Virus record (IMG/VR): IMGVR_UViG_3300006751_000186
Coordinates: 1-20,855 of that record
Origin: a virus
Reading direction: 5' to 3' (one strand)
DNA length: 20,855 nt
In this document: positions 3,112 through 4,446 of the stretch, one piece after another
How positions within the stretch are numbered: the stretch's first letter is position 1
Layout: each line of letters starts with the position of its first letter
The notes under the pieces: generated by a model
What the model saw: the letters and a program-made list of their open reading frames with translations, nothing else
What the model was told of the DNA's origin: nothing
The model's database searches: none
Position numbers and translations under genes: made by a program

Positions 3112-3170
3112 GGTTGTTGTTCAACCGCTGGCCGCGCCGAGGGTTTCGCTTCCTTTGTTTCCCTCGGCGC
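3112..3170 (+). ncRNA. Structured two-hairpin late leader with an anti-RBS loop
   Basis: Two hairpins follow the candidate late promoter. The first is GGTTG (3112-3116) with CAACC (3122-3126). The second is a perfect 10-bp stem, GCGCCGAGGG (3134-3143) with CCCTCGGCGC (3161-3170), around a 17-nt loop. The loop contains GCTTCCTTTGTTT (3148-3160). The exact reverse complement is the ribosome-site region of leftward gene 161-553 (559-571). Twelve of these bases recur at 1359-1370, and a one-mismatch copy lies at 1811-1822. In RNA, the loop could base-pair with those ribosome sites. There is no T-run after the stem, so it is not a terminator. It may be a 5' leader element or a small regulatory RNA. 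The pairing is seen in the sequence; the function is inference. Confidence 0.4.
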
Positions 3171-3200
3171 AAACCGATTCTCATCATGCAGCGAGATCCA

Positions 3201-3689
3201 ATGGCGAAGCGATACGACAGCAGTAAACTGTCAGTGCAGCAGTTCAAACGTGGCGAAGAAGAAGCTCTGGAGCAAGTCAGGGCAGAACTGCGTGAAGAAG
3301 CCAAGAAGACCCCCATCAACAAGAAGCTCCATCTCGAAGCCGAGGCTAGCCTCGTGCCGGATGTTCACAGCTTGATTGGCAACGCCTACCACATCATCGA
3401 CACCGAGCTGCGAACCCTCAAGGGGCTAAGTCGCAATCAGTACGAGGGGCTCGATAAGAACCAGGCTGCAAACTTTGCTTCCATCGTCCGGTCCATCCAG
3501 ACTCTGAACAACGTTGAGATGACCTTGCGTGACCAGAACGCTCTTGAGGCTCTGCCTGATGACGAACTCAGGAAGAGAGCCAGCGACGCCTTCCTTAAGC
3601 TCGACAAACGACTGCAGAAGGTGATCACCGAAGAAGGCAGTAAAATACAGGCGAAGCGGGCCGAGAAAGCGTACCGGGATGCAGAATGA
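3201..3689 (+). CDS. Helical protein at the head of the late operon, possible small terminase
   Basis: 162 residues from ATG 3201, preceded by GCGAGA. ATG 3186 is an in-frame alternative adding five residues, and the open frame extends further upstream across the leader hairpin, which I consider non-coding. The protein is highly charged and mostly helical, with a basic N-terminus (MAKRYDSSKLS), a middle helical block and a long C-terminal Glu/Lys/Arg helix. Its position as the first late gene upstream of the large terminase, plus its size and helical nature, fits a small terminase subunit. However, I see no clear helix-turn-helix signature and other genes intervene. The stop TGA overlaps the ATG at 3686 and lies just past ATG 3679. 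The function is an inference from context. Confidence 0.6.
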   Translation: MAKRYDSSKLSVQQFKRGEEEALEQVRAELREEAKKTPINKKLHLEAEASLVPDVHSLIGNAYHIIDTELRTLKGLSRNQYEGLDKNQAANFASIVRSIQTLNNVEMTLRDQNALEALPDDELRKRASDAFLKLDKRLQKVITEEGSKIQAKRAEKAYRDAE

Positions 3690-4446
3690 GCTTAAAGTCG
3701 CCAGTTGTTTCTCTGGCATCGGCGGGTTCGAGTACGGTATCGAAGCAGCTATCCCTTCTGCCCGAACCGTCGCCCAAATCGAGATCAACGACTACTGTCG
3801 TGACGTCCTCGCCTGGCATTGGCCAGAGGCCGTCCAGCACAGAGACATCAACGACGTTCAAGGCTCAGACCTCGGAGACATTGACATCCTGCTCGGCGGG
3901 TCGCCCTGTCAGGGATTTAGCTCGCCTGGAGTGGCAGCCGGACTGGAAGACGAGCGTTCGGCCCTTTGGTTTCAGATGCTTCGACTGGTGCGCGAGACTC
4001 GTCCAAAATACGTGGGTATCGAGAACGTCTCCGCTCTTTCCGAACGAGGCCTCGACCAAGTACTCAGCGGACTGGCCGAAGCGGGGTATGATGCGGAGTG
4101 GACGAGTTTATCGGGACATGACACAGGTGCACCCCACCGTCGCTCCCGAATATGGATCCTGGCCTACCCCAACAGCCTCAGACTCCCGCTCCAGTCGCCG
4201 AGTCGCGTACATGGACAAAGGCAACGCGGGGACGACCCTTCTCGACGCAGCGATGGTCCACGACGGTTTTCCGCCAACCCGTGGCAAAACGGATCGCCGG
4301 TTGAATCCACGATTCGTGCTCTGGCTGATGGGCTATCCAATGGGGTGGTTCGATGGCGTGAACAAGTCCAAGCGCTGGGCAACGCCATCATCCCCCAAGC
4401 AGCCTTCTGGCTTGGGCAGCGAATAGGGGAGATCGAATATGGATGA
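3679..4446 (+). CDS. C5-cytosine DNA methyltransferase
   Basis: 255 residues. It shows the C5-methyltransferase motifs in order: motif I FSGIGGFE (residues 11-18, S-adenosylmethionine binding), motif IV GGSPCQGFS with catalytic C77, motif VI ENV (115-117), motif VIII HRRSR (153-157) and motif X LGNAIIPQ (about 233-240). The enzyme methylates cytosine C5 in double-stranded DNA. In phages such genes usually protect the genome from host restriction or compete for host methylation sites. Only about 75 residues separate motifs VIII and X, so the target-recognition region is short; most family members are 300 residues or longer. It overlaps its upstream neighbour by 11 nt and the next gene by 8 nt. 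Most of the gene is also open in the +1 frame (see 3686-4426). Target sequence unknown. Confidence 0.92.
   Translation: MQNELKVASCFSGIGGFEYGIEAAIPSARTVAQIEINDYCRDVLAWHWPEAVQHRDINDVQGSDLGDIDILLGGSPCQGFSSPGVAAGLEDERSALWFQMLRLVRETRPKYVGIENVSALSERGLDQVLSGLAEAGYDAEWTSLSGHDTGAPHRRSRIWILAYPNSLRLPLQSPSRVHGQRQRGDDPSRRSDGPRRFSANPWQNGSPVESTIRALADGLSNGVVRWREQVQALGNAIIPQAAFWLGQRIGEIEYG
3686..4426 (+). CDS. Overlapping +1-frame ORF inside the methyltransferase gene, dcm-associated protein family
   Basis: A 246-residue open frame lying wholly inside the methyltransferase gene, one frame over. Its ATG 3686 overlaps the upstream stop as ATGA, a common coupling arrangement. The N-terminal 100 residues are Ser/Thr/Pro-rich and could be mere frame shadow. 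The second half carries ordered motifs: RTSPLFPNEAS, WPKRGMMRSGRVY (W130 onward), WPTPTASD (159-166), LNPRFVLWLMGYPMGW (206-221) and WATPSSPK. I recognise this order from a phage protein family usually annotated as methyltransferase-associated and often found beside dcm genes. The last block is encoded by the bases that give motif X (GNAIIPQ) in the other frame. If expressed, this is a true dual-coding gene. Function unknown, possibly DNA recognition or assistance to the methylase. Confidence 0.5.
   Translation: MSLKSPVVSLASAGSSTVSKQLSLLPEPSPKSRSTTTVVTSSPGIGQRPSSTETSTTFKAQTSETLTSCSAGRPVRDLARLEWQPDWKTSVRPFGFRCFDWCARLVQNTWVSRTSPLFPNEASTKYSADWPKRGMMRSGRVYRDMTQVHPTVAPEYGSWPTPTASDSRSSRRVAYMDKGNAGTTLLDAAMVHDGFPPTRGKTDRRLNPRFVLWLMGYPMGWFDGVNKSKRWATPSSPKQPSGLGSE

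Follow-up and report, generated by a model that had tools for sequence, protein, structure and literature searches.

Same-strand nesting of long genes is considered rare in prokaryotes, and gene finders routinely drop such genes. A candidate pair of this form lies in the IMG/VR virus record IMGVR_UViG_3300006751_000186, of which we analysed a stretch of 20,855 bases (the window). Here a C5-cytosine methyltransferase frame, which we call alpha, encloses a second open frame, beta, in the +1 register. The locus raises the question of whether beta is a protein in its own right or a shadow cast by alpha, and, if it is a protein, what it contributes to the methyltransferase.

Two frames and the motifs they carry

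A preliminary description of this locus had placed alpha at 3679-4446 and beta at 3686-4426, and its coordinates, reading-frame lengths and motifs were all correct. The features that matter below are these:

2517-2951, HIT-domain protein in the phage contig (PF01230, 1.1e-22)
3114-3689, ORF without a recognised family, upstream neighbour of the methyltransferase pair
3679..4446, + strand, alpha: large-domain C5-cytosine methyltransferase polypeptide, 255 aa, with motifs I-VIII and X and without motif IX (ORF, PF00145, NCBIfam dcm, M.HhaI)
3679..3688, + strand, tandem start codons: alpha ATG at 3679 and beta ATG at 3686, spaced by 7 nt (sequence)
3686..4426, + strand, beta: nested +1-frame polypeptide, 246 aa, PHROG 1008 family, carrier of motif IX (phrog_1008, leave-out profile)
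3709..3726, + strand, alpha motif I (FSGIGG), invariant or nearly so in alignment A4 (sequence)
3895..3912, + strand, alpha motif IV (GGSPCQ), with catalytic Cys 77 at 3907-3909; G74, P76 and C77 invariant in A4
4021..4029, + strand, alpha motif VI (ENV); E115 and N116 invariant in A4
4073..4102, + strand, beta motif WPKRGMMRSG, overlapping alpha AGYDAEW, both frames constrained; G134 and G139 invariant in 84 betas
4126..4149, + strand, alpha motif VIII (GAPHRRSR); R155 and R157 invariant in A4
4150..4374, + strand, segment VIII-X: evolution in the beta frame, with alpha a poorly conserved linker on the same bases (substitution counts)
4160..4183, + strand, beta motif WPTPTASD, putative start of the target-recognition region; T161 and P162 nearly invariant (entropy)
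4295..4348, + strand, beta motif IX (RRLNPRFVLWLMGYPMGW) (entropy, hhalign register, single-chain relatives)
4375..4398, + strand, alpha motif X (LGNAIIPQ), with the beta tail WATPSSPK a shadow on the same bases (substitutions, entropy)
4439-5089, ORF without a recognised family, downstream neighbour of the pair
5333-6814, large terminase, just downstream of the pair and ORF 4439-5089 (phrog_2, 1e-40)

The PF00145 match of alpha (5.6e-40) is confined to residues 6-170, which correspond to motifs I-VIII; alpha also matches NCBIfam dcm at 1.2e-37 and M.HhaI at 7e-21, the latter likewise over motifs I-VIII. The key residues of C5-methyltransferases (the AdoMet site of motif I, the PC of IV, the ENV of VI and the RxR of VIII) are invariant in 50 relatives, and motifs I, IV, VI and VIII place alpha in the PF00145 class. 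The locus departs from a single-chain enzyme, which has IX and X in one chain: X is in alpha and IX in beta, and the two together hold the full motif set. A profile search of the 246-residue product, suggested in the preliminary description, returned phrog_1008 at 1.2e-15 in two stretches and makes beta a member of PHROG 1008; no Pfam or NCBIfam family was found for it by profile searches. Although PHROG 1008 is named 'DNA methyltransferase', the window's beta has no catalytic motif, and it would be a small-domain partner rather than a catalytic methyltransferase. Its ATG (3686-3688) overlaps the TGA (3687-3689) of the upstream ORF. Beyond the HIT-domain protein and the terminase, family searches of neighbouring ORFs gave weak sub-threshold matches, and no endonuclease was recognised beside the pair, some of these ORFs having no family at all.

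Selection on the nested frame

It had been argued that a shadow frame should not mimic the motif order of another family. We shuffled synonymous codons only, leaving the alpha protein unchanged (2 x 5000 shuffles), and scored the +1 frames on a beta profile made from 168 loci with the window and its near relative left out. The shuffles had median scores of 59 and 56 bits and best scores of 102.7 and 96.0, against 147.9 bits for the window's beta; the +1 frame was open for 246 codons in 14/5000 and 13/5000 of them. Roughly 59 of the 148 bits are therefore a shadow that any alpha of this type casts, so that mimicry accounts for this much of the resemblance, and the remainder, up to 147.9 bits, needs selection on beta. 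Because none of the 10,000 alpha-preserving shuffles reaches its score, beta is more than a shadow arising by chance. On the beta profile, the +1 shadow of ordinary dcm genes is at most 18 bits.

Substitutions tell which frame codes where, given that beta position 3 is alpha position 1 and alpha position 3 is beta position 2. Across 16 pairs of relatives, the rates at alpha codon positions 1/2/3 were 0.143/0.111/0.319 in the interval I-IV, 0.133/0.066/0.262 in IV-VI, 0.132/0.059/0.195 in VI-VIII, 0.253/0.118/0.149 in VIII-X and 0.120/0.075/0.372 from X to the end. The variable position in VIII-X is beta's third, and this stretch therefore evolves as beta. On either side the alpha pattern prevails, and VI-VIII is constrained by both frames, with an alpha third-position rate of 0.195 compared with 0.331 in I-IV plus X-end (p 1e-9). 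Counted over all pairs, VIII-X has 426 substitutions at alpha position 1 and 251 at position 3, whereas I-IV plus X-end has 200 and 482 (p 6e-36, a pooled value that overstates independence because some pairs share members; a few pairs with no located motif VIII mark have VI-VIII counted within VIII-X, which dilutes the flip). The flip agrees in 11/11 clade-distinct pairs. It also appears between the window and its relative L001, where VIII-X substitutions at alpha positions 1/2/3 number 19/5/8 of 74 each (Fisher p 0.0016 against IV-VIII plus X-end).

Codon-position entropy, counted independently on deduplicated loci, has its maximum at beta position 3 in the motif IX block (1.21 vs.48/.54) and in the WPTP block (1.56 vs.72/.76). 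Alpha motifs I, IV and X have theirs at alpha position 3 (1.81, 1.55 and 1.74), and the codon positions of the WPKRGMMRSG block stand at.63/.95/.96. Both frames are conserved and under selection. The earlier proposal that two real protein families share this DNA, with selection on each, is thus borne out by the shuffles, the codon-position substitutions and the entropy, as well as by the start codons and the alpha-led survey described below. A second proposal, that the ATPSS tail is an evolutionary footprint of motif X, fell: WATPSSPK is a shadow of GNAIIPQ, and X-end substitutions sit at alpha third positions (0.372, compared with 0.120 and 0.075). A beta tail selected as a motif X footprint is therefore rejected, since the DNA past motif X evolves in the alpha frame.

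It is extremely improbable that the +1 frame makes no product and merely shadows a conserved methyltransferase gene. Such a reading would account for the bits expected from the alpha frame alone and for the family's near-constant overlap with dcm, but it fails to explain why VIII-X evolves in the beta frame and not in alpha's, why no shuffle attains the observed score, or why ordinary dcm genes cast so little; moreover, motif IX is absent from alpha and needed. The preliminary description would have discounted beta had its only homologues been frame shadows of dcm genes. That check does not discriminate, because genuine betas are themselves nested in dcm genes, and it is the codon-position evidence that decides.

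Motif IX and a putative two-chain enzyme

Ordinary C5-methyltransferases have motif IX between the recognition region and motif X, for example MTPRECARLMGFPDSF in locus L205. Alpha of the window has no motif IX, and the corresponding place in the DNA reads RRLNPRFVLWLMGYPMGW in the beta frame. Aligned with ordinary C5-methyltransferases by hhalign, beta gives motif IX as its sole register, a weak match (P 0.14) that is not significant alone. As a test of complementarity, genomes were searched with PF00145, and the presence of motif IX in a gene was judged by PF00145 coverage, a regular expression having missed many ordinary methyltransferases. Genes matched to about position 320, with motif IX in frame, had no +1 beta beyond the 18-bit shadow; the 7 genes whose match ended at about 165-225 (L175, L177, L178, L179, L181, L230 and L233) had nested betas of 101-281 bits. 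This complementarity is stronger support than the hhalign register for the predicted motif IX of beta.

Single-chain relatives from actinophages (Estave1, Gudmit, Phinally and others) have motifs I-VIII, then LPTP... and FPEWMMGWPAGW, then motif X, all in frame. An AlphaFold2 model of one single-chain relative fits M.HhaI end to end (Z 22.8, 3.0 A, 243 residues; 1-367 on M.HhaI 12-325), with pLDDT 78-94 in the IX-X part and low confidence in the recognition region. The window has the same motif set as M.HhaI and M.HaeIII, and the fold is the same in the single-chain relative; what differs is that the window splits the motifs over two frames of one DNA. Modelled by itself, beta gave a poor AlphaFold2 result (pLDDT 59.7, pTM 0.28), which would not be surprising for half a protein, and its profile had no meaningful match to any solved chain. 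The N-terminal third of beta (1-85) is poorly conserved. We infer that beta carries the target-recognition region, whose bases are selected in the beta frame.

Several features of the relatives are noted here in passing. The recognition region often has several repeated (W/L)PTPxA units (L028, L243, L245 and others), which suggests repeat-based growth of a variable region. The actinophage loci L247-L278 (L249 is an example) are single-chain, with motif IX in the alpha frame, yet have an open +1 frame that scores 52-112 bits on the beginning of the beta profile but lacks motif IX; this frame may be a relic or an alpha shadow. Many alphas carry a Dcm C-terminal stretch, EPxVGRVADGxPxRVDRL, that is a frame echo of beta NPxWVEWLMGFPxGWTDL, with variable first codon positions.

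We consider it highly probable that the locus encodes one two-subunit (split) C5-cytosine DNA methyltransferase of the M.EcoHK31I kind. The two frames would be one split enzyme and not two unrelated functions, because the +1 product carries the motif IX that is absent from alpha. In this enzyme, the large catalytic domain would be alpha, which has motifs I-VIII with the AdoMet site and the catalytic residue Cys 77, and whose motif X completes the fold. The same mRNA would also be translated in the +1 frame, from a separate ATG, to give beta. Beta would supply the small domain, including motif IX and presumably the variable target-recognition region. The two chains are expected to associate into a complete enzyme that would methylate phage DNA and probably host DNA too, and the phage probably benefits by being protected from host restriction.

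A separate beta start is also reflected in the start codons. Among 70 loci whose beta frame is open through motif I, the beta start lies at most 45 bases upstream of motif I in 58, and it is ATG in 51. The typical start is xTGAATGAGYTGGC, with the beta ATG 4 bases after the alpha start and a Shine-Dalgarno upstream (for example GAGGAGGCAAGGTGAATGAG in L032). At this paired start 23/23 distinct loci use AAT for Asn and 23/23 use GAG for Glu; at other sites in the same alphas the counts are 52/148 and 76/239. Selection for the beta ATG would lead one to expect such a choice. In 83 loci the beta ORF opens only past motif I, and an internal start is required there. The window's own Shine-Dalgarno is weak, and the true beta start could be internal.

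Two other ways of reading the pair have to be set against these data. A programmed +1 frameshift after motif VIII might fuse alpha I-VIII to the beta recognition region and motif IX, with no separate beta start. The single-chain actinophage relatives have exactly such a junction, and in some phages (L002, L244 and L245) alpha ends just after VIII while beta continues through X. A fusion would have no use for the beta segment upstream of VIII, which is nevertheless conserved and under constraint in both frames; the beta ATG beside the alpha start is kept by synonymous choice; and the fused chain would lack motif X, which stays selected in the alpha frame. We regard a frameshift as unlikely for these reasons. 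Somewhat less likely again is an alpha that is active by itself, with beta a separate regulator or accessory protein overprinted by chance. Alpha does have the catalytic motifs and motif X, and beta alone has no confident fold, but motif IX is missing from alpha, whose VIII-X segment shows no conservation at the protein level; single-chain relatives have the beta motifs in frame where the small domain belongs; and beta and alpha were never separate in our samples.

Known relatives, layouts and distribution

The beta polypeptide of M.EcoHK31I is encoded inside alpha in another frame, and the window's second polypeptide is nested in another frame too (3686-4426 inside 3679-4446). Both M.EcoHK31I polypeptides are reportedly required, to go by the title of a 1995 report by Lee, Kam and Shaw. 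M.EcoHK31I is a natural two-polypeptide enzyme (PMC3404938, PMC3439449). Its target is YGGCCR, and it belongs to a bacterial restriction-modification system. PMC3404938 assigns motifs I-VIII and X to the large subunit, for which it also predicts the recognition domain, and motif IX alone to the small polypeptide. Compared by description and not by sequence, the window agrees with M.EcoHK31I in having a large chain with I-VIII and X and motif IX on a second polypeptide. It differs in that its pair is in a phage with no endonuclease recognised nearby, and in that its VIII-X bases evolve as beta codons, whereas the M.EcoHK31I recognition domain is predicted in the large subunit. M.AquI (CYCGRG) is likewise one C5-methyltransferase made of two polypeptides, but has both IX and X in the small subunit (PMC3404938); the window keeps X in alpha, and its X-end evolves in the alpha frame. 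M.AquI-like relatives occur in Corndogvirus and Arthrobacter phage ArV1 (L002 and L245). Our literature search found the nested pair described nowhere beyond mentions of M.EcoHK31I.

Four layouts occur in one homologous set:

Layout 1, ordinary single chain
Layout 2, nested, with X in alpha (the window)
Layout 3, overlapping, with X in beta, M.AquI-like (L002, L244, L245)
Layout 4, single chain with an LPTP recognition region (L240, L242, L243)

A few small indels could interconvert them.

About 250 loci of phages and bacteria were found to have the nested layout. The beta profile retrieved 80 loci from viruses and 80 from genomes; together with earlier ones they make 170, a sample biased towards beta. 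Beta had been described as a phage protein usually found beside dcm genes; instead, 164/170 of these loci have it within alpha, always at one and the same frame offset, the others being 5 partial overlaps and 1 frameshifted copy. The frameshifted copy, L050, had been a candidate fusion and was rejected as such, being a nested pair with a frameshift. A search led by alpha only found a nested +1 beta in 80/80 loci; in 2 of these the contig stops short of motif IX. The idea that beta is a family standing alone beside dcm was also rejected, with 0 such loci among the roughly 250 surveyed, a survey in which distant members could be missed. By record title only, with MAG-based and prophage entries taken as titled, the hosts include Pseudomonadota, Actinomycetota, Cyanobacteriota, Chloroflexota, Bacteroidota, Bacillota, Verrucomicrobiota, Desulfobacterota and one archaeal Alkanophagales genome. 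Both ORFs are annotated at times, as in Paenibacillus phage Arcticfreeze (56/57) and Firecracker (gp6/gp5); often only one is.

The pair is best filed as a new member of the known M.EcoHK31I kind, yet one that is very widespread and usually unannotated. It is quite possible, though we hold this more tentatively, that the nested layout is among the most widespread same-strand nested pairs in prokaryotes and phages, and that it is kept by uncoupling specificity, with the whole target-recognition domain in beta, from catalysis. If true, alpha would act as a tolerant linker on the shared bases, and recognition cassettes could diversify or swap with the catalytic chain untouched; the Dcm C-terminal stretch EPxVGRVADGIPNRVDRL would be mostly a reading-frame echo of beta motif IX. 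Genomes that list the dcm half alone would hold half an enzyme, and the prediction is that cloning or expressing the annotated gene by itself will fail. The locus is a good natural case for the study of dual coding because its coding frame switches cleanly between VIII and X, and the paired start codons make two-frame translation from one site directly testable.

A few copies in the survey carry stops. One in-frame stop lies in alpha, with beta intact, in L012 (2104-2424) and in L102 (2233-2739); these could reflect sequencing error, decay or stop recoding. An E. coli PCP07014 prophage (L360, 1503-2264) has one stop each in alpha and beta, near each other, and its RefSeq annotation is that of a pseudogene containing an internal stop. 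Its relative in an E. coli PT62 prophage (L359, 1500-2237) is intact and unannotated, with a beta of 209.9 bits, and offers a convenient system; its start region has GGAGG and GTGAATGAG.
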